DNA from: Actinacidiphila yanglinensis
GTDB taxonomy: Bacteria > Actinomycetota > Actinomycetes > Streptomycetales > Streptomycetaceae
Assembly (NCBI RefSeq): GCF_900107965.1
Contig: NZ_FNVU01000014.1
Span: 82,569-146,568, forward strand
DNA length: 64,000 bases
Reading direction: 5' to 3'
Each line of letters opens with the position of its first letter. Within the stretch, counting starts at the first letter, position 1. Shown here piece after piece: positions 31,527-41,422 of the stretch. The translations under genes were made by a program, and so were the position numbers. The notes beneath the pieces were generated by a model that had not been told where the DNA came from, did no database searches, and saw nothing but the letters and a program-made list of their open reading frames with translations.

Positions 31527-34475
31527 ATGCAGACGGCGCAGTCAGGACTGGTCGGCCGCGACCGGGAGATCGGCGAGGTCGAGGCGATGCTCACCGCGGC
31601 CGCGGGCGGCGCCGGCCGGGTGGTGGTGGTCAGCGCGGGCGCGGGGACGGGGAAGTCCGCGCTCCTCGACACCGCCCTCGACCGGGCCCGGCGCGAGGGG
31701 TTCACGGTGCTGTCGGCCCGCGGGATATCCTCCGAGCGCGAGCTGCCGTTCGGGCTGGTGAGCAGGCTGTTCGAGCCGGTCGCCGCCGAACTGGCGCAGG
31801 CCGGGCCGCCGTTCACCGGACTCGGCCACGAGGCGCCGCACCCGCCCGCCGGCTGCTTGCCCGACCACGCCCTCTCGGTCGAACTCCACGCCTTCCACCG
31901 GGCGCTGGCGCGGCTGTCCACCCGGGCGCCCGTGCTCGTCGCCGTCGACGACCTCCAGTACCTCGACCGCGAGTCGCTGCGCTGGCTCAGCGCCCTGCCG
32001 CAACGCGTCGACCACGCACGGATCGCGGTGATGCTCACCGTGTGCCCGGGCGAGCCGTGCGCCGACCCCGCGGTGCTGGACGAGCTGCTGTCCGTGAGCG
32101 CGGTGGAGTTGCACCCGGCGGCCCTGAGCGCGCCCGCCACCTCGACAGTGATCGAACGCGCGCTGGACGCCGCGCCCGACGCGCCGTTCGTCGCGGCCGT
32201 CATGCGGGAGGCGGGCGGAAACCCGCTGTCCGTCACCGAGTTGACCTCGGTGCTGCGGGACCGGGCGGTCACCCCCACCTCCGACTCGGCGGGCGTGCTC
32301 GACGACATCGCGGTCCCCCGGCTCGCCGCCCGGCTGCGCGCCCGGCTGCGCCGGATATCGCCGCACGCCCTCGACATCGCCCGCGCCACCGCCGTGCTGG
32401 GGGCCGAGGCGGACCTCGCCCGGGTCGCCCGGCTGTGCGGTCTGGCCCCCGAGGCGGTCATGGCGGTCGCGACGGCGCTCGGCCGGGCCGGGCTGATGGA
32501 GCCCGCGGGCGAATCCCTGGCGTTCGCCCAGCCCTTGACCCGCAGCACGCTGCTGAGGGACGTGCCGCTCGCGGACCTGCACGCGCTGCACACCAGGGCG
32601 GCCGGAATCCTGCGGGCCACCGGCGCGCCCGGCGACCGGGCGGCCGAGCAGCTCATGGCGGCGTCCGCGCCCGGGGAAGGGTGGGCCGCCCAGCCGTGGG
32701 CGGCCGACGTCCTGCGCGAGGCCGCCGCGACCGCGCTCGGCCGCGGCGAGCCCGAACGGGCCGGCGCCTACCTCGCCAGGGCCCTGCGCGAACCGCTCCC
32801 GGCCGCCACCCGCACCACCCTGCTGGCCGAACTGGGCCACGCCGAGGGGTTCGTGGACCTCGGCGCGGCGATCGGCCACCTGACGGCGGCGACCCGGGAC
32901 CAGCGCGTCCGGGACGGCAGTCCCCGGGCGGAGCGGGGCGTGCGTTCCGAACACGGACGGGCCGACGACGTGCTGCCGGACGACGTGCGGGCCGTACCGG
33001 CCGGGCAGCCGCCCGAGCACGCCCTCCCCGAGCGGGCGCTGCGCGAGCTGGCCGAGCACCTCACCGCCACCGGCCGCCCCGACGAGGCCCGGCACCTGCT
33101 CTCCGAGCGGCCGGAGTCGATACCCGGCGCGCGCGCCCTGTGGCTCGCGGAGCTGCGGTGCGACACCGAGGCGGAGAACGCCGGCGGCCCGCTGCCCCGC
33201 CTGCGCCGGCCGGCCCGGCCCGACGGCGTCGACGAGGGCCGCTACCTCGGCCTGCTCGCCACGCGCACCGCGCGGGCCGGCCGCTCCCGGTCCCGGGCCG
33301 TGGCATTCGCCGAACAGGCGCTGGCGGTCCTCCCGGTCACCCCGGAGGCGCTGCCGCCCACCCTGCGCGCCGTGCAGGTGCTCGCGCAGGCCGGCCGGGC
33401 CGAGGACGCGATCGAGCGCTGCGACGAGCTGGCCGGGCAGGCAGCGCGCTGGGGTCACCGGCCGGGCCTGGCCGCCGTCCGGTCGCTGCGCGGGCTGGTC
33501 GCGCACCGGCTGGGCCGGATGCCGGCCGCGGCCGAGGACGCCGCGGCCGCGCTGGAGCTCCTCGTCGGGTGCCGCGCCCCCCGGCACAGCGGCGCGACCG
33601 TGGAACTGCTGGCCCGGCTGGTCGAGATCCACGTCGAGCTGGGCGGGTACGACGAGGCCGCGGCCCTGATCGTGCAGGCGGAACCGCGCCCCGAGGCGTG
33701 GCGGACCTGGGGCGGCACCGCGCTGCTGCTCGCCCGGGGCCGGCTGCGGGTCGCCGCCGGGCAGCCGGCGGACGGGCTGCGGGACCTGCTGGCGGCCGGC
33801 GGCCGGCTGCCGGCCTGGAAGGTGGACAACCCGGCCGTCGCGCCGTGGCGGTCCGGCGCCGCGCGGGCGCTGCTGGCGCTCGGCGAGCCGGCCGAGGCCC
33901 GCCGGTACGCCGCGGACGAGGTGGAGCAGGCGCGGCGCTGGGGCACGCCCGGCCCGCTCGCGGCCGCCCTGCGCGCGATGGGCGCCGTCGCGGGCGGCGC
34001 CGAGGGGCTCGCGGTGCTGGAGAAGTCGGTCTCCGTGGCGGAGCGTTCGGACGGCCGGCTGGACCTGGCGCGGTCGCTGGCGGAGCACGGTGCGGCGCTG
34101 AACCGCGCGAAGCGCCGCGAGCCGGCCCGGCGGGCGCTGCGTGCGGCGCTCGACCTCGCAGAGGAGTGCGGCTGCGCCGACCTGGCCGGCCGGGCCCGGA
34201 TCGAGCTGTACGCGTCCGGTGGCCGCCCACCGAGGTCCACCGACACCGCGGGGGTCGCCGCCCTCACGGCGGCCGAGCTGCGAACCGCCACCCTCGCCGC
34301 GGAGGGCCGCACCAACCGGGAACTCGCGGAGATCCTGCTGGTGGGCCTGCGGACCGTCGAGGTGCACCTCACCCACGCCTACCGCAAGCTCGGCATCGAG
34401 GGCCGCGAGCACCTGCCCGCGGTGCTGCTCGGCCGCGCGGACCCCCGGGTCGAGTCCCGCGCAGACTCCCGCTGA
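31527..34475 (+). CDS. LuxR-family transcriptional regulator, LAL type
   Basis: The 982-residue regulator has an N-terminal AAA/STAND ATPase (GLVGRDREIGEVE, Walker A GAGTGKSALL at 38-47, Walker B-like VLVAVDDLQYLD) and a long TPR-like middle. The C-terminal LuxR helix-turn-helix reads LTAAELRTATLAAEGRTNRELAEILLVGLRTVEVHL in consecutive parts. Proteins of this LAL type often activate secondary-metabolite or secretion clusters. It ends 520 bases before the precursor peptide gene on the same strand, making it a candidate activator of the peptide-export operon. A good ribosome binding site is not obvious before ATG 31527. Confidence 0.9.
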   Translation: MQTAQSGLVGRDREIGEVEAMLTAAAGGAGRVVVVSAGAGTGKSALLDTALDRARREGFTVLSARGISSERELPFGLVSRLFEPVAAELAQAGPPFTGLGHEAPHPPAGCLPDHALSVELHAFHRALARLSTRAPVLVAVDDLQYLDRESLRWLSALPQRVDHARIAVMLTVCPGEPCADPAVLDELLSVSAVELHPAALSAPATSTVIERALDAAPDAPFVAAVMREAGGNPLSVTELTSVLRDRAVTPTSDSAGVLDDIAVPRLAARLRARLRRISPHALDIARATAVLGAEADLARVARLCGLAPEAVMAVATALGRAGLMEPAGESLAFAQPLTRSTLLRDVPLADLHALHTRAAGILRATGAPGDRAAEQLMAASAPGEGWAAQPWAADVLREAAATALGRGEPERAGAYLARALREPLPAATRTTLLAELGHAEGFVDLGAAIGHLTAATRDQRVRDGSPRAERGVRSEHGRADDVLPDDVRAVPAGQPPEHALPERALRELAEHLTATGRPDEARHLLSERPESIPGARALWLAELRCDTEAENAGGPLPRLRRPARPDGVDEGRYLGLLATRTARAGRSRSRAVAFAEQALAVLPVTPEALPPTLRAVQVLAQAGRAEDAIERCDELAGQAARWGHRPGLAAVRSLRGLVAHRLGRMPAAAEDAAAALELLVGCRAPRHSGATVELLARLVEIHVELGGYDEAAALIVQAEPRPEAWRTWGGTALLLARGRLRVAAGQPADGLRDLLAAGGRLPAWKVDNPAVAPWRSGAARALLALGEPAEARRYAADEVEQARRWGTPGPLAAALRAMGAVAGGAEGLAVLEKSVSVAERSDGRLDLARSLAEHGAALNRAKRREPARRALRAALDLAEECGCADLAGRARIELYASGGRPPRSTDTAGVAALTAAELRTATLAAEGRTNRELAEILLVGLRTVEVHLTHAYRKLGIEGREHLPAVLLGRADPRVESRADSR

Positions 34476-34995
34476 GCGCACCACGCTTCCGCCGCCTGCG
34501 TTCGAACTCCCTTGGCGCGCACCGCACTTCGTCCCACGCCCGCGGACTCCCGCTGACCACCGCGGACTTCCGCGCTGCCCGCGTGGACCCCCGCTGCGTG
34601 CCCGAACGCTTCCCCAGCGTGGCCCCGGCCAATCCTGCACACAGTGAACGCATAAGGCGCACAGCATCCTGACGGGATCCGCTGCGGGCGGCAGCCGTAA
34701 ATCGTAAGTCGCAGGAATGTCCGCATCGCGGTCGACGCCGTGCCGCGGTGGGAGGAATAGCCGTTCGAAGTATGTGAAGAAATCGTCGGCATCCGGTGGG
34801 CGATCGGCCACGAATACCGGTAGCGGTACCGAAAGGCTGACCGAAACATCGAGGTGACCGGGGTGGCCGGGGGGCCGGAACGCGTACTAGCGTCCAGCGT
34901 CGAACGGGAGTTGTGAAATACGTTCGGACCGTCATTCGAACATCCGGCTCCCGCTCACCACGGAATTCCGCAGAGCCACGAAGGGAACGCAATTC
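34476..34995. promoter_or_regulatory. Regulatory region upstream of the double-glycine peptide operon
   Basis: This 520-bp non-coding region, with lower GC from about 34,630, separates the LAL gene from the precursor gene. It has three TTCGAA motifs (GTTCGAAC 34500-34507, GTTCGAAG 34763-34770, ATTCGAAC 34934-34941). The last is half of an inverted repeat with GTTCG at 34922. TAGCGT at 34888-34893 could be a -10 about 100 bases before the start. CGGAATTCCGC occurs at 34961-34971. Just after the LAL stop, variants of GCGGACTCCCGCTGACC recur (34458, 34542, 34561 and 34583). Confidence 0.5.
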
Positions 34996-35214
34996 ATGCG
35001 TAACACCACTCCTCAGGTCGAGACCCGCGAGCTTGCCGACGGCGACCTGGACAACATCTCCGGTGGCCTCGGCGTCGGCGTGGACCTCAACGGTCTGGGC
35101 CTGGACAGCCTGCTCGCCCCGGTCGCCAACGCGCTGCCCGTCGGCGAGGTCACCGGCCTGGTCGGCGGCGCCACCAACACGCTGACGGGCCTCACCGGTC
35201 TCGCGGGTCTCTGA
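34996..35214 (+). CDS. Double-glycine leader precursor peptide (72 aa), putative bacteriocin-like peptide
   Basis: The leader (residues 1-24) ends ELADGDLDNISGG. Counting back from the cut site, it has Gly-1, Gly-2, Ile-4, Leu-7, Asp-8 and Leu-12, the exact hydrophobic/acidic pattern read by C39 peptidases. The predicted 48-residue product is Gly/Leu/Val-rich, has no Cys, Lys, Arg, His, Trp, Tyr or Phe and only three acidic residues. It contains overlapping GxxxG motifs (core G26-G30-G34) and repeated TGL units at the end. AAGGGA lies upstream of ATG 34996. The adaptor, C39 transporter and second ABC transporter follow on the same strand. No modifying enzyme is near, so I infer an unmodified exported peptide of unknown role. 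Confidence 0.85.
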   Translation: MRNTTPQVETRELADGDLDNISGGLGVGVDLNGLGLDSLLAPVANALPVGEVTGLVGGATNTLTGLTGLAGL

Positions 35215-35235
35215 TCGCGAGATGCCCGACCATGG

Positions 35236-35260
35236 CCCCGGAACTGCCTGTTCCGGGGCT
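35236..35260 (+). terminator. Hairpin between precursor and exporter genes (possible attenuator)
   Basis: GCCCCGGAAC (35236-35245) and GTTCCGGGGC (35251-35260) form a perfect 10-bp stem with a TGCCT loop, 21 bases after the precursor stop, without a long T-run. Partial termination here would yield more precursor than exporter transcript, a common design in bacteriocin operons. The following leader holds direct repeats GCCGTGCCCGGCCG (35264, 35283) and CCGGCCGGGTCCGGCC (35290, 35333). Confidence 0.65.
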
Positions 35261-35377
35261 TGGCCGTGCCCGGCCGCACCTCGCCGTGCCCGGCCGGGTC
35301 CGGCCCTTCTCCCCCGGGTCCGTCCCGTACTTCCGGCCGGGTCCGGCCGAGACGAACGCCGTTGAAGGAATGGTCCC

Positions 35378-36184
35378 GTGCAGTTCCGGCAGAAGGCGCT
35401 CGACAAGCTCGATGCGCCCGAAGAGCTCGACATACCGGTCCGCTTCGCCCGCCCGCAGGGCCGGCTGGCGCTCGCCGTCGCCGCGGTCGTCCTCGCCGCC
35501 GCGACCTTCTGGGCGGTGACCGGCACGGTCTCCTCGAAGCTGACCGCCCCGGGCATCCTGACCCGGGTGCAGGGGAGTTACGTCCTCCAGAGCCCGTTCG
35601 CCGGCCAGGTCACCGAGGTGTACGCCAAGGAGGGCGACGAGGTGGCGAGCGGCGCGCGGCTGCTGAGCGTGCGCACGGCCACCGCCGTCGAGGCGGTCCG
35701 CGCGGTGGCCGCGGGGCGGGTGACCGCACTGACCGCCAAGATCGGCTCGGTGGTCGCCACCGGTGCCGACCTGGCGACGCTGGAACACGCCGATACCCCC
35801 AACGACCCGCTGGTGGCGGTGCTGTACGCGCAGGGCGGCAGCGCGTCGTCGATCGTGGCGGGCGCCGCGGTCGACCTGACCGTGCAGACCGTGCCGACGC
35901 AGGCATACGGCGTGCTGCGCGGGCGCGTGCTCGCCGTCGGACGGGTGCCGGAGACCCGGCAGCAGATCACCAGCTTCCTGGGCGACGAGCAACTGGGCGA
36001 GCAGTTCTCCGCGAAGGGCCAACCCGTGGCCGTCGTCGTGCAGTTGAACCGCTCGTCGCACACGAGGTCCGGCTACACGTGGTCGTCGACGAGCGGGCCG
36101 CCGTACACGGTCGACTCGCGGACGCTGATCAGCGGCGCCGTCCACCTGGCCGCCCAGCATCCGATCGACTGGGTGAAGCCGTGA
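35378..36184 (+). CDS. HlyD-like adaptor of the NHLM-type peptide exporter
   Basis: The 268-residue protein has a short cytosolic start, one membrane segment (about 30-48) and a lipoyl-like extracytoplasmic part (GSYVLQSPFAGQVTEVYAKEGDEV), followed by a beta-barrel region. This is the shape of the secretion protein of NHLM/NHLP bacteriocin export systems. It is shorter than Gram-negative HlyD and suits a monoderm. GAAGGA is 9 bases before GTG 35378. Its stop overlaps the start of the C39 transporter (GTGA at 36181), so the subunits are translationally coupled. Confidence 0.85.
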   Translation: MQFRQKALDKLDAPEELDIPVRFARPQGRLALAVAAVVLAAATFWAVTGTVSSKLTAPGILTRVQGSYVLQSPFAGQVTEVYAKEGDEVASGARLLSVRTATAVEAVRAVAAGRVTALTAKIGSVVATGADLATLEHADTPNDPLVAVLYAQGGSASSIVAGAAVDLTVQTVPTQAYGVLRGRVLAVGRVPETRQQITSFLGDEQLGEQFSAKGQPVAVVVQLNRSSHTRSGYTWSSTSGPPYTVDSRTLISGAVHLAAQHPIDWVKP

Positions 36185-38379
36185 CCGCGCGGCACACACC
36201 GGCGCCGGCCGCGCGCCGCCCGAAGCGCCAGAAGACCGTTCGCACGCCCAGCGTCCTGCAGATGGAGGCCGTGGAGTGCGGCGCCGCCGCGCTCGCCATG
36301 GTGCTCGGCCACTACGGCCGCCACGTGCCCCTGGAGGAACTCCGGATCGCCTGCGGGGTCTCCCGCGACGGCTCCCGAGCGAGCAACGTGCTGAAGGCCG
36401 CCCGCGGTTACCGCCTTGAGGCCAAGGGCATGCAGATGGAGTCGGAGGCTCTGGCGGGAGTACGCACCCCCGCCGTCCTGTTCTGGGAGTTCAACCACTT
36501 CGTCGTCTACGAGGGAACGGTGCGGCGCTTCGGCCGCCGCGGTGTGCGCCTCAACGACCCCGCGCGCGGACGCAGGTTCGTCCCCGAGGACGAGTTCGAC
36601 GCCGGCTTCACCGGCGTGGTGCTGACCTTCGAGCCCGGTGCCCGGTTCCGGCCCGGCGGCCGCAGACCCGGGATCGCCGGCGCGCTCCCGGCCCGGCTGC
36701 GCGGCACCCGGGGCACGACGCTGGCCGCGCTGATCGCCAGCTTCCTGCTGGTGGCCGTGGGGGTGGCGGTGCCCGCGCTGAGCCGCGCGTACATCGACAG
36801 CTTCCTGTTCGGCGACCGGACCTCGCTGCTCCCGGTGATCTTCTCGTCGATGGCCGCGCTGGTGCTGCTGACCGCGGTGCTCACCGGGGTGCAGCAGTCC
36901 AACCTGCTGCGCGGCCGGATCATCTCCTCCACCCTCGGCAGCGCCCGGTTCCTGCGGCACCTGCTCCGGCTGCCCGTGACGTTCTTCGCCCAGCGCAGTC
37001 CCGCCGACCTGGTGCAGCGGCTCCAGTCCAACGACTCGGTGGCCGAGACGCTGGCCCGGGACCTCGCCTCGGCGGGCGTGGACGCGGTGGTCGTGGTCCT
37101 CTACGCGGTCCTGCTGTGGACCTACGACCCCCAGTTGACCCTGCTCGGGGTGGGTCTGGCGCTGCTGAACATCCTCGCGCTGCGCGTGGTGGCCCGGATC
37201 AGGAGCACCCGGGTGCACAAACTGCGGGCCGATGGCGCCCGGTTGACCAACACCGCTTACAGCGGGCTGCAGTTGATCGAGACGATGAAGGCCACCGGGG
37301 GCGAGAACGGCTACTTCCGGCGCTGGGCCGGCCAGCACGCCACGACCCTCGACGGTCAGCAGCGGCTGGGCGTACCGAGCGCGGCGCTGTCCGTCGTCGC
37401 GCCCACCCTGGCGGCGCTCAACAGCGCGCTGATCCTGCTGATCGGTGGCACGCGGGCGGTGGAGGGCAGCATCTCGATCGGGCTGCTGGTCGCCTTCCAG
37501 ACCCTGGTCACCAGCTTCACCGCGCCGGTCAGCCGGCTGAGCGCGGTGGCCGGCCGGGTGCAGGACTTCACCGCGGACGTGGCCCGGCTCAAGGACGTCG
37601 AGCGTTTCCCGGCGGACCCGCTCTTCACCCGCGACCGGCCGGCCGACGGCACCCGCCGGCTCAGCGGCCATGTGACGCTCGACCACATCACCTTCGGGTA
37701 CAGCCCGCTCGACGAGCCGCTGCTCACCGACTTCTCGCTGTCGGTCGGCCCCGGCCGCCAGGTGGCGCTGGTCGGCGGCTCCGGCAGCGGCAAGTCCACG
37801 GTCTCCCGGCTGATCTCGGGCCTGTACCAGCCGTGGGAGGGCGAGATCCGGATCGACGGGCACCTGCTGTCCGACCTGTCCCGCGGCTCGCTGTCCGCGT
37901 CGGTGTCCTTCGTCGACCAGGACATCTTCCTGTTCGAGGGCACCGTGCGCGACAACGTGGCCCTGTGGGACCCGTCGATCCCCGACGAGGCCGTCGTCGC
38001 CGCGCTGGAGGACGCCGCCGTGCTCGACGCGGTCGCCCGGCGCCCCGGCGGGATCCACGCCCGGGTGGAGCAGGACGGCCGGAACTTCTCCGGCGGGCAG
38101 CGGCAGCGGCTGGAGATCGCCAGGGCGCTGGTCCGCCGGCCGAGCGTGCTGGTCCTCGACGAGGTGACCAGCGCCCTCGACGCGGAGACCGAGCAGGTGA
38201 TTATCGACAACCTCCGGCGGCGCGGCTGCGCCTGCGTGGTGATCGCACACCGGCTCAGCACGGTCCGCGACAGCGACGAGATCGTGGTCCTGGACCGCGG
38301 CCGGGTCGTGGAGCGCGGCCGGCACGAGGACCTGGTCGCGGCCGGCGGGCCGTACGCCGAACTCGTCAGGGAGCGCTGA
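36181..38379 (+). CDS. C39-peptidase-containing ABC transporter (peptide cleavage and export)
   Basis: The 732-residue transporter has an N-terminal C39 peptidase with Gln27, Cys33 (QMEAVECGAAALAMVL), His106 (FNHFVVYEG) and Asp126 (RLNDPARG). A six-segment exporter domain follows (about 180-460), then an ATPase with Walker A GGSGSGKST (~532), signature FSGGQRQ (~636) and Walker B VLVLDEVTSA. It should cut after the Gly-Gly of the precursor encoded at 34996 and export the rest. All catalytic residues are intact. It starts with GTG overlapping the adaptor's stop and is followed one base later by the second transporter. Confidence 0.95.
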   Translation: MTARHTPAPAARRPKRQKTVRTPSVLQMEAVECGAAALAMVLGHYGRHVPLEELRIACGVSRDGSRASNVLKAARGYRLEAKGMQMESEALAGVRTPAVLFWEFNHFVVYEGTVRRFGRRGVRLNDPARGRRFVPEDEFDAGFTGVVLTFEPGARFRPGGRRPGIAGALPARLRGTRGTTLAALIASFLLVAVGVAVPALSRAYIDSFLFGDRTSLLPVIFSSMAALVLLTAVLTGVQQSNLLRGRIISSTLGSARFLRHLLRLPVTFFAQRSPADLVQRLQSNDSVAETLARDLASAGVDAVVVVLYAVLLWTYDPQLTLLGVGLALLNILALRVVARIRSTRVHKLRADGARLTNTAYSGLQLIETMKATGGENGYFRRWAGQHATTLDGQQRLGVPSAALSVVAPTLAALNSALILLIGGTRAVEGSISIGLLVAFQTLVTSFTAPVSRLSAVAGRVQDFTADVARLKDVERFPADPLFTRDRPADGTRRLSGHVTLDHITFGYSPLDEPLLTDFSLSVGPGRQVALVGGSGSGKSTVSRLISGLYQPWEGEIRIDGHLLSDLSRGSLSASVSFVDQDIFLFEGTVRDNVALWDPSIPDEAVVAALEDAAVLDAVARRPGGIHARVEQDGRNFSGGQRQRLEIARALVRRPSVLVLDEVTSALDAETEQVIIDNLRRRGCACVVIAHRLSTVRDSDEIVVLDRGRVVERGRHEDLVAAGGPYAELVRER

Positions 38380-38380
38380 C

Positions 38381-41300
38381 GTGACGTCCGTGCACCCGCC
38401 GGTGGCCGGCGGCGCCGGACCGGGTGACCCGGTGCTGGACGCGATGGGCGGGCTGGGCGAGCCGGTCGCACCCGCCGGGCGGCGCAGCCTGTCCCTGGAG
38501 GGCCCGCATGTGCTGTGGCTGGTCGCGCGCGGAGCGATGGACCTGTTCGCGGTCGACGCGGCGCAGCAGGGCCGCTGGCACTTCCTCGGCCGGCTCGGCA
38601 CCGGCACGCTGCTGCTCGGACCGGCGGAGGGACCGCAACACACCCTGGTGAGCCGCCCGTTGGAGGGCTGCGAGCTGCGCCGGATCACGCTGCGGGAGCT
38701 GTTCGGCACCGGCTACGGCGACCAGGGCGCGCAGGGCGGGTACGCCGACGGCTCGGTGTACTTCGACGGCGACGGAGGCTGGGCCGAGAGCAGCCAGGCG
38801 TGGGGCGGCGGCCCGCTGGAGAACGCGTTCGCCCGGGGGATCGGCCGCGGCCTGAGCGTCCTGTTCGACGCACCCGTGGACGGCCGCCCGGTGCCGGGCG
38901 GGGGACCCGGCGCGACCGGCACCGGCGAGGGGCCGACCGATGAGGGCATCCTGTGGATGCCGGTGGCGCCCGGCAGCGTGCAGTACGCCGGCCCGTACGG
39001 AGCCGGGTACGGGAACGGCTGGGTCGACGGGTACGGGTACGGGCAGGACGGCGGCACCGCGAACGGCATGCCGTACCAGGGCGGTTACACCGGGGAGCCG
39101 GGCGGGGAACTGCTCGTCGACGGCCGGATGTGGCGGCGCATGGTGGACCAGCAGACCCGGCTGCTGCTCGCCCTCGACCGCTGGATCGAGCAGTCGGAGC
39201 AGGCGCACGAGGACCGGGCGGCCGCCGGGATCAAGGCCGGTGAGGCGGTCCGCGAGCAGGCCGACCACACCCTGCTCTCCGCGCTCGGCAAGCCCGGCTC
39301 CGCCCGGCCCGGCTCGGGCCGGACAGCGGCCGTACCGGGGGGCACCGCCGGTGACGACGGCACCCTCGCCGCCTGCCGTCTGGTCGCCGACGCGGCCGGG
39401 ATCGATCTCGGGGCGGCCGCGAAGGGCGGCGCAGGTCCGGACGGGACCGACCGGCTGAGCGCGGTCGAGCGGATTGCCGTGGTCGCGCGGGTGCGGACCC
39501 GCAACGTCCGGCTCAGCGGCCGATGGTGGCGGGAGAACGCCGGCCCGCTGGTGGGTCACCGCGCCGCCAGCGGCGCCCCGGTCGCCCTGCTGTGGCGCCG
39601 CGGCGGATACGAGGCGGTCACCCCGGCCACCGGGCGCCGCGCGCGGATCGACGGCGACAACGCGGCCGAGTTCGCGCCCCGCGCGGTGATGTTCTACCGG
39701 CCACTGCCCGACGAGCCCATGTCCGCCCGCCGGTTGCTCGCTTTCTGCATGCGCGGCACCGGCGCGGACCTGCGGGCCCTGCTGCTGGGCGGGCTGGTGG
39801 CGGTCGGCCTGGGCACCCTGGTGCCGATCGCCACCGGCCGGGTGCTCGGGACGTACGTACCGAACGCCGAGAACAGCCTGATCGTCCAGACGTCGCTGGC
39901 GCTCGTGGCCACCACCGTGGTCTCCGCCGCCTTCAGCCTGATGCAGAGCACTGCCGTGCTGCGCGTCGAGGGCCGGGTCGAGGCCACCCTCCAACCCGCC
40001 GTCTGGGACCGGCTGCTGAGGCTGCCGACGCGGTTCTTCGCCGAGCGCTCCACCGGCGAGCTGGCGAGTGCGGCGATGGGCATCAGCGCGATCCGCCGGG
40101 TGCTGTCCGGCACCAGCTCGGTGATCGTGCAGTCCGGCACGGTCGGCGCGGTGAACCTCGTCCTGCTGCTCTGGTACAGCGTGCCGCTGGCCCTGGTCGC
40201 GCTCGGGATGCTGGCCGTGATCGGGGCGGTCTTCGTCGGCCTCGGGCTGACCCAGCTGCGCTGGCAGCGCAAGCTGGTCGTGCTCACCAACAAGCTCAAC
40301 AACCTGGCCTTCCAGACGCTGCGCGGCCTGCCGAAGCTGCGGGTCTCGGCGGCGGAGAGCTTCGCCTACGGCGCCTGGGCCGGGGAGTTCGCGCACAGCC
40401 GCGAGCTGCAGCAGCGGGTCGGCCGGACGAAGAACCTCGTCACCGCCTTCAACGCGGTCTGCCTGCCCTTCTGCACGCTCACCATGTTCATGCTGCTGGC
40501 GGGCCCGGCCCGCGGCAGCCTGTCGGCCGGCGCCTTCCTCACCTTCAACACCGCGGTCGCGATGATGCTGACCTCGGTCACGCAGCTGACCGGCGCGCTG
40601 CTCTCGGCCGCCGCCGTACTGCCCCTGTTCGAGCAGGTCAGGCCGATCCTCGAGGCGGCTCCCGAGGTGCGCGGCGGCAGCACGCAGCCCGCGGCACTGT
40701 CCGGCGCGATCGACGTCCGGAACCTCTCCTTCCGGTACGGCGACAGCGCCCCCCTGGTCCTGGACGACGTGTCCTTCCAGGTGCGGCCGGGCGAGTTCAC
40801 CGCGATCGTGGGTGCCAGCGGCTGCGGCAAGTCCACGCTGCTGCGGCTGCTCATCGGCTTCGACCGGCCGGTCTCGGGCGGCGTGCACTACGACGGTCAG
40901 GATCTGGCGGCCCTGGACCAGGCCGCGGTGCGCCGCCAGTGCGGGGTCGTCCTGCAGAACGCGCAGCCGTTCACCGGCTCGATCCTCGACTGCATCCGCG
41001 GCACCGGGACGTACTCCCTCGAAGAGGCCTGGGCGGCCGCCGAACTGGCCGGCCTGGCGGCGGACATCAAGCAGATGCCGATGGGGATGCACACCGTGCT
41101 CTCCGACGGCGGCGGCGCCGTCTCGGGCGGGCAGCGGCAGCGCCTGATGATCGCGCAGGCACTGATCCGCCGCCCCCGCGTCCTCTTCTTCGACGAGGCC
41201 ACCAGCGCGCTCGACAACGAGACCCAGCGCGTGGTGATGGAGAGCACCCGCGCGCTGCGGGCCACCCGAGTGGTGATCGCCCACCGGCTGTCCACGATCA

Positions 41301-41422
41301 TGGATGCCGACCGGGTGATCGTGCTGGCCGACGGGCGCGTGGTCCAGCAGGGTCCGCCGGCCGAGCTGCTCGCCGACACCGACGGCCTCTTCCACCTCCT
41401 GGTCCGCCGCCAACTCCAGTGA
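38381..41422 (+). CDS. NHLM-type bacteriocin-system ABC transporter (second, peptidase-less)
   Basis: The 1013-residue protein has an N-terminal cytosolic domain of about 450 residues, a membrane domain (about 455-740) and an ATPase with Walker A GASGCGKST (~810), VSGGQRQ (~913), VLFFDEATSAL and the IAHRLS switch. This matches the second ATP-binding protein of NHLM bacteriocin systems, which lacks C39. Its N-terminal domain is longer than I would expect because of two Gly/Tyr-rich inserts (about 108-145 and 195-242, e.g. YGAGYGNGWVDGYGYGQDGG). GTG 38381 starts one base after the previous stop. It probably works with the C39 transporter. Confidence 0.9.
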   Translation: MTSVHPPVAGGAGPGDPVLDAMGGLGEPVAPAGRRSLSLEGPHVLWLVARGAMDLFAVDAAQQGRWHFLGRLGTGTLLLGPAEGPQHTLVSRPLEGCELRRITLRELFGTGYGDQGAQGGYADGSVYFDGDGGWAESSQAWGGGPLENAFARGIGRGLSVLFDAPVDGRPVPGGGPGATGTGEGPTDEGILWMPVAPGSVQYAGPYGAGYGNGWVDGYGYGQDGGTANGMPYQGGYTGEPGGELLVDGRMWRRMVDQQTRLLLALDRWIEQSEQAHEDRAAAGIKAGEAVREQADHTLLSALGKPGSARPGSGRTAAVPGGTAGDDGTLAACRLVADAAGIDLGAAAKGGAGPDGTDRLSAVERIAVVARVRTRNVRLSGRWWRENAGPLVGHRAASGAPVALLWRRGGYEAVTPATGRRARIDGDNAAEFAPRAVMFYRPLPDEPMSARRLLAFCMRGTGADLRALLLGGLVAVGLGTLVPIATGRVLGTYVPNAENSLIVQTSLALVATTVVSAAFSLMQSTAVLRVEGRVEATLQPAVWDRLLRLPTRFFAERSTGELASAAMGISAIRRVLSGTSSVIVQSGTVGAVNLVLLLWYSVPLALVALGMLAVIGAVFVGLGLTQLRWQRKLVVLTNKLNNLAFQTLRGLPKLRVSAAESFAYGAWAGEFAHSRELQQRVGRTKNLVTAFNAVCLPFCTLTMFMLLAGPARGSLSAGAFLTFNTAVAMMLTSVTQLTGALLSAAAVLPLFEQVRPILEAAPEVRGGSTQPAALSGAIDVRNLSFRYGDSAPLVLDDVSFQVRPGEFTAIVGASGCGKSTLLRLLIGFDRPVSGGVHYDGQDLAALDQAAVRRQCGVVLQNAQPFTGSILDCIRGTGTYSLEEAWAAAELAGLAADIKQMPMGMHTVLSDGGGAVSGGQRQRLMIAQALIRRPRVLFFDEATSALDNETQRVVMESTRALRATRVVIAHRLSTIMDADRVIVLADGRVVQQGPPAELLADTDGLFHLLVRRQLQ

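Follow-up and report, generated by a model that had tools for sequence, protein, structure and literature searches.

Within a 64,000-nt stretch of the Actinacidiphila yanglinensis genome (the window, by which we mean the whole of the DNA analysed), a short precursor gene is followed by genes for a HlyD-type adaptor, a C39 peptidase–ATP-binding cassette (ABC) transporter and a second ABC transporter (ABC2), and we consider it very probable, judging from the sequence, that together they make and export a dedicated, secreted peptide that is cleaved by the C39 domain and otherwise left unmodified. Three features seen in the sequence carry this proposal: the leader fits C39 recognition, the C39 transporter is intact, and the adaptor and ABC2 are conserved together with the precursor. 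A surface or morphogenic role for the peptide is, in our estimate, about as likely as not. The best explanation overall, held with middling confidence, is that the four genes are dedicated to the production and export of a single small peptide, the most likely place of action of which is the hyphal surface or envelope. The cassette lies on a 203-kb contig (C38) of the 9.59-Mb genome.

The leader of the precursor, MRNTTPQVETRELADGDLDNISGG, has every key residue that the earlier note on this DNA had listed, namely, Leu-12, Asp-8, Leu-7, Ile-4, Gly-2 and Gly-1. In the C39 protease LahT150, leader residues −4, −7 and −12 sit in hydrophobic pockets, according to the part of PMC6363468 available; at these positions, the window leader presents Ile, Leu and Leu, respectively. 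The closest solved structure to the C39 domain is that of LahT150 (6mpz; E = 1.3e-41), and Cys33, His106 and Asp126 of the window protein align with this protease, for which the same source gives the catalytic triad as Cys27, His101 and Asp117. These three residues, together with Gln27, are intact, as are the Walker A, SGGQ and Walker B motifs of both ATPases, such that the catalytic integrity read from the sequence by the earlier note holds throughout. The four open reading frames (ORFs) of that note were likewise all recovered at the same positions. Its description of a new peptide-export system was, however, overstated: each of the three adjacent exporter genes scores above the curated cut-off of its NCBI model for the NHLP/NHLM (nitrile hydratase leader peptide/microcin) export set (TIGR03794, TIGR03796 and TIGR03797), and, therefore, the exporter is, on sequence criteria, this known three-gene set; a cassette with the same gene order has been reported in Streptomyces coelicolor. 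Residues 1–340 of ABC2 (38381–39400, + strand) matched no Pfam family.

Co-occurrence was assessed in 297 Streptomycetaceae genomes, including all 35 from the genus of the window; as these genomes are related to one another, a p value for the co-occurrence is no more than nominal. Precursor relatives were found at E ≤ 1e-3 in 161 of them, 135 at E ≤ 1e-10, and the 26 falling between these two values may include non-members. All 161 precursor-positive genomes also encode an ABC2 match (E ≤ 1e-200), whereas the transporter alone is present in 15 of the 297, and neither in 121. Within the genus, 22 of the 35 genomes, that of the window included, have a precursor relative, and the same 22 hold the best HlyD-family scores (E ≤ 4.2e-12, as against ≥ 6.3e-11 in the other 13). 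Gene adjacency was checked in the best 80 of the 386 precursor relatives (the named loci). Matches to HlyD, C39 and ABC2 immediately follow the precursor in 76 of these, one match being partial in each of L101, L109, L112 and L132; the search for homologous precursors beside the exporter in relatives, as proposed in the earlier note, thus returned a conserved precursor adjoining it rather than the absence that would have spoken against it. In a phylum-wide sample of 396 genomes, 11 genomes matched the precursor at E ≤ 1e-4, all of them Streptomycetaceae and none from outside the family, and at least one further Streptomycetaceae genome (G056) was without a match; the precursor was also unmatched in plasmid records. 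Among named relatives, Actinacidiphila guanduensis is the nearest at the cassette locus, its C39 transporter being 90% identical to that of the window. In a tree of the C39 transporters from the window and 75 loci, built by a quick method and rooted on the genome's own second C39 protein (described below), the Streptomyces sequences mostly cluster, and those of Actinacidiphila are scattered over several places; the tree, therefore, does not demonstrate strict vertical descent.

The 81 precursors (window plus 80 loci) yielded 69 unique cores of 39–56 residues. As the loci were found using leader-residue patterns, and the precursors extracted with a rule demanding SGG or AGG, the conservation of the leader is partly by construction; the composition of the core was not directly selected. 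The cores are uniform in their chemistry: all 69 lack cysteine, as the earlier note had seen for the window, 65 have no Lys, Arg or His, and 64 no aromatic residue, whereas every one has between one and four acidic residues. Their mean hydropathy (GRAVY) is +1.01, 55 end in AGL, and a mid-core proline is invariant across 29 aligned precursors. The cores are alike within lineages and different between them. No Pfam or NCBIfam family matched the window precursor, and five of its relatives gave no family model above its cut-off in the same searches, the NHLP and Nif11/N11P models TIGR03793 and TIGR03798 being among those that matched none of the six.

The reading of the product as a surface peptide draws on a cassette of S. 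coelicolor, described in the accessible part of PMC6629963. There, sco0753 encodes a hydrophobic peptide of 77 aa that lacks cysteines and has no known function; it lies upstream of the HlyD homologue sco0754 and the ABC genes sco0755–sco0756, in an organization conserved in many Streptomyces, and the next gene, sco0757, encodes an exopolyphosphatase. The same source links sco0753–sco0756 to hyphal morphology: sco0753 is the most overexpressed gene in a strain with dispersed growth in which the Sco5282 kinase (of the Sco5282/Sco5283 system) is activated, these genes are nearly silent in the null mutant, and the authors suggest an effect on the hyphal surface. The term ‘binding site’ is absent from its main text. 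Published data, available in part, also report that sco0753 is up in an aor1 mutant, as are two SapB-cluster genes, and that sco0756 is up in a mutant of polyprenol-phosphate-mannose synthase. What inclines us towards the surface reading is, besides these expression data, that the core is acidic and that no immunity or receptor gene is recognizable among the recurrent neighbours. Of the putative products that the earlier note had offered (a bacteriocin, a signal or a surface-active developmental peptide), circumstantial evidence speaks more for the surface peptide than for the bacteriocin.

Upstream of the precursor, two elements recur across the family. Out of 68 non-redundant regions, 41 contain the consensus of the operator-like element E1, TGTGAAGAAGTCGTCACC, with up to four mismatches, where block-shuffled sequences would give 0.1, and 58 contain a promoter-like element, GCGTGCTTTGATC, with up to three mismatches, where shuffles would give 3.4; as the upstream regions are related, the shuffles are a lenient control. 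Genome-wide, TGTGAAGAANTCGTC has a single exact match, at E1 of the window, and a single one-mismatch match elsewhere; with up to two mismatches, it gives 45 matches, versus 16 for the reversed pattern. Downstream of the precursor gene, a perfect stem of at least 8 bp occurs in 54 of the 80 loci, as against 3% of shuffles, and the hairpin may be attenuator-like or serve to stabilize the transcript. A scan with sigma-70 and terminator consensus sequences found none. New in the present analysis are the recurrence of these regulatory elements, the chemistry that the cores share across the family, and the unlinked paralogues described below, some of which have E1.

We envisage the following sequence of events. 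A regulator that senses the state of the envelope would act through the recurring upstream element and the promoter; owing to the hairpin that lies between them, the message for the precursor would presumably be in excess of those for the exporter. The C39 domain would cleave after Gly24, and the resulting acidic, hydrophobic, cysteine-free peptide of 48 residues would leave the cell, unmodified, through the NHLM exporter. Outside, it would most likely play a structural, surface-active or morphogenic part at the hyphal surface or envelope.

A number of observations weigh against this account. Three of the precursor-positive genomes (G038, G063 and G069) match the precursor only at E values of 8e-4 to 9e-4, as weakly as does the leader of the TOMM-type precursor (see below) in the window's own genome (9.1e-4), and their sequences are probably not members of the precursor family. 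The promoter-like element of the window is weak, with five mismatches, its site having been placed by position and by comparison by eye. The ratio of non-synonymous to synonymous differences (pN/pS) of the core reaches 0.94 in the closest pair of the window (with L060) and 1.2 in one other pair, and the AlphaFold model of the precursor is poor (mean predicted local distance difference test score, pLDDT, of 59). With regard to S. coelicolor, the identity with sco0753–sco0756 is judged from the order of the genes, the traits of the peptide and the neighbouring exopolyphosphatase gene; just 19 of the 80 loci have a Ppx/GppA gene downstream within the flank covered, and in the window, this neighbour is a rhamnosidase gene. 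Moreover, in the published data available, sco0756 is slightly down (0.6) in a copper-handling mutant, and many genes are involved in the dispersed growth of the kinase mutant.

That the exported core is instead an unmodified, class II-like bacteriocin, which permeabilizes the membranes of related bacteria, seems to us doubtful, albeit the best of the alternatives. The double-glycine leader, the C39-ABC transporter and the HlyD protein are as in bacteriocin exporters, and the first two are traits of class II bacteriocins; GxxxG is present in 67 of the 69 cores, and a C-terminal helix is predicted, in the low-confidence model. Additionally, the core is more variable than the leader, with pN/pS values of 0.49 and 0.17, respectively, over 28 disjoint precursor pairs. 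However, bacteriocins are mostly cationic, whereas these cores are almost devoid of cationic residues and net acidic. No known bacteriocin family model scored above its cut-off with the six precursors searched: what matches there were stayed below it, e.g. TIGR01847 at 14.6 bits (cut-off 15.7) in one relative, and the window precursor had none. There is no recognizable immunity gene among the ORF clusters that recur in the 80 loci, although small genes may escape and four recurrent clusters match no Pfam family. The cassette is, moreover, found in about half of the sampled Streptomycetaceae, and the pooled core pN/pS gives no sign of strong diversification.

A peptide signal passing between hyphae or strains, processed in the manner of other double-glycine pheromones, is unlikely. 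C39 exporters do carry quorum-signalling peptides as well, according to the part of PMC6363468 available, and the pattern of cores that agree within lineages and differ between them would suit a signal. Against this, no receptor or kinase gene is widely recurrent beside the cassette, a response-regulator cluster being present in four of the 80 loci. The LuxR-type AAA regulator gene that lies upstream in the window has a counterpart in one of the 80 named loci (L060, from the same genome as L004) and in L011. A core of 48 residues that is very hydrophobic is also unusual for a pheromone.

We regard it as quite improbable that the product is a modified RiPP (ribosomally synthesized and post-translationally modified peptide), the tailoring enzyme of which is encoded elsewhere, as the labels ‘lantibiotic-like’ and ‘type A2 lantipeptide’ would have it. 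Serine and threonine do make up ∼20% of core residues, the genome has LanC-like domains on other contigs (C39, C7, C30 and C31), and genes for an iron-containing redox enzyme family and for a small-domain methyltransferase, each in 16 of the 80 loci, lie 7–9 kb downstream of the precursor. In the available part of PMC13047742, a Streptomyces peptide from the region of a C39 gene is named a type A2 lantipeptide on the basis of BLAST; it may be a member of the present family. PMC6629963, in the part available, cites van Keulen and Dyson 2014 for a lanthipeptide prediction. Nevertheless, none of the cores has a cysteine, and the redox and methyltransferase genes are missing from most loci. Whole-genome family searches (E ≤ 0.001) gave no YcaO, LanC-like or radical-SAM match anywhere on contig C38, other enzyme families not having been searched for, such that the lack of lanthionine, YcaO and radical-SAM enzymes noted earlier for the window extends to the entire contig. 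The lanthipeptide reading was set aside on the absence of cysteine and of LanC-like matches on C38 or among the recurrent neighbours, the thiazole/oxazole-modified microcin (TOMM) reading on the location of the sole YcaO match of the genome on contig C37, and the radical-SAM reading on the fact that all 22 such matches fall on contigs other than C38. The uniformity of the cores, the recurrence of the operator-like element and the existence of paralogues also speak against the lanthipeptide label for these peptides. Finally, a chance origin of the precursor ORF, from GC-rich DNA that happens to adjoin an exporter, might be suggested by its shortness, low complexity and lack of a Pfam or NCBIfam match, but is in effect refuted by its conservation: relatives occur in 161 of the 297 genomes, in 135 of them at E ≤ 1e-10, the leader is conserved, and the pooled pN/pS is below 1.

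Contig C37 itself holds, at ∼190–203 kb (L002, L140 and L142), the only other C39 gene of the genome, the YcaO gene and, a few kilobases away, a precursor that ends in a Cys-rich core, SGGDNTYCCCCCPCCTCT; the plain cassette is, therefore, accompanied in this genome by an NHLM locus of the TOMM type. In G038, G063 and G069, a strong ABC2 match stands beside the very weak precursor match, perhaps with NHLP-type leaders like that of the C37 locus, and the 15 genomes with a strong ABC2 but no precursor match of the family (e.g. G032, G035 and G053) may hold other precursor types.

No exporter accompanies the precursor in four of the 80 loci, although the stretch of L103 stops ∼1 kb after the precursor and that of L104 starts ∼1 kb before it. 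L103, L117 (A. oryziradicis) and L104 (A. soli) are paralogous precursors without an exporter in the DNA covered; they are possibly exported in trans by the cassette located elsewhere in the same species (L067, L068). The fourth (L079:9989–10737; Streptomyces sp. WMMB 322) is a tandem pair of precursor-like ORFs that have a similar leader; HlyD, C39 and ABC2 were unmatched within its 20-kb locus. Compared with the E1 consensus, L117, L103, L104 and L079 have zero, two, five and seven mismatches, respectively.

The features of the window are collected in Table 1. In the neighbourhood of the 80 loci, 31 ORF clusters recur in at least four, three of them being cassette genes; as the ORF caller relied on a GC3 score and a minimum length of 60 aa, small genes may have been missed. 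YcaO, LanC-like, radical-SAM and ATP-grasp domains are absent from the other 28 clusters, as judged by Pfam searches with one representative each. The most frequent neighbours, a gene for a SpoIIE/GAF phosphatase (34 of 80 loci) and one for a secreted protease of the alpha-lytic type (32 of 80), occur upstream of the cassette in Streptomyces (e.g. L074:5346–9425). In the window, the large LuxR-type AAA/TPR regulator gene (31527–34475, + strand) is directly upstream of the precursor, and apart from the counterparts already mentioned, a similar gene is found in no other of the named loci.

Table 1. Positions of the cassette genes and associated elements in the window
Feature	Position	Strand	Remarks
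Operator-like element E1	34773..34790	+	223 nt upstream of precursor start; family consensus TGTGAAGAAGTCGTCACC, GTGA-N8-TCAC; window TGTGAAGAAATCGTCGGC, 3 mismatches
Promoter-like element	34882..34894	+	Where the family element GCGTGCTTTGATC sits; window GCGTACTAGCGTC, weak match, 5 mismatches
Ribosome-binding-site-like GAAGGGAA	34980..34987	+	GAAGGGAAG near −16 in 46/81 upstream regions
Precursor peptide, 72 aa	34996..35214	+	ATG at 34996; 24-residue double-glycine leader and predicted 48-residue Cys-free core
Perfect hairpin, 10 bp, loop TGCCT	35235..35259	+	3' of precursor gene; no T run behind
HlyD-type adaptor, 268 aa	35378..36184	+	GTG start; TIGR03794, 161.6 bits (cut-off 156.2); Pfam HlyD_3
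C39 peptidase–ABC transporter, 732 aa	36181..38379	+	GTG start; overlaps hlyD by 4 nt; TIGR03796, 989.8 bits (cut-off 853.3)
Second NHLM ABC transporter (ABC2), 1013 aa	38381..41422	+	GTG start, directly behind C39-ABC gene; no C39 match; TIGR03797, 873.2 bits (cut-off 709.4), residues 326–1012

More tentatively, we suggest that there may be a Streptomycetaceae-wide class of unmodified, acidic, hydrophobic peptides, poor in aromatic residues and cysteine, under a cassette-specific GTGA-N8-TCAC operator, in which one NHLM exporter would serve both linked and unlinked precursors, and the peptides would coat or remodel hyphae under envelope stress. If true, this would amount to a layer of secreted peptides separate from SapB, the chaplins and the rodlins, in a family in which about half of the sampled genomes carry the cassette. 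In the published account as far as available, a strain that grows in an altered form has its most strongly induced gene in the S. coelicolor cassette of this layout; the literature found reports no isolated product. Concrete tests are within reach owing to the uniform core chemistry, the recurring operator-like element and the existence of paralogues.

Among known systems, the window shares its exporter with the NHLP/NHLM set of Haft 2010 (PMC2887384), all three genes passing its models. In contrast to the NHLP/Nif11 precursors tabulated in the available part of that paper, with leaders of 69–87 residues, the window leader has 24 and no nitrile-hydratase or Nif11 match, and its contig lacks a YcaO or LanC-like enzyme; the paper does, however, state that some precursors of these families come from species for which no modifying enzyme is known. 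Similar cassettes, with precursors outside NHLP and N11P, have been catalogued in cyanobacteria (PMC3140520, part available): the bacteriocin clusters of group V combine a three-gene transport cassette with double-glycine precursors, 16 of 37 of which lie outside both families, but they have approximately three precursors per cluster and belong to another lineage. The C39 domain aligns with the LahT150/PCAT proteases and keeps their catalytic residues, whereas LahT itself sits in a lanthipeptide operon (PMC6363468, part available). SapB of Streptomyces, discussed in the accessible part of PMC6629963, offers an analogy as a small, secreted, morphogenic peptide; unlike the cysteine-free core of the window, it is a lanthipeptide. 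The closest likeness is to sco0753–sco0756, with the same order of peptide, HlyD, ABC and ABC genes, and a hydrophobic, cysteine-free peptide, albeit one of 77 rather than 72 aa; the exopolyphosphatase encoded by sco0757 recalls the downstream Ppx/GppA genes of the family, and the window differs in having the rhamnosidase gene at this place. As the published description agrees with the order of the genes and the traits of the peptide, and with the exopolyphosphatase gene found downstream in 19 of the 80 loci, we file the window cassette as a new member of the sco0753–sco0756 cassette and, by gene order, as its counterpart in A. yanglinensis.

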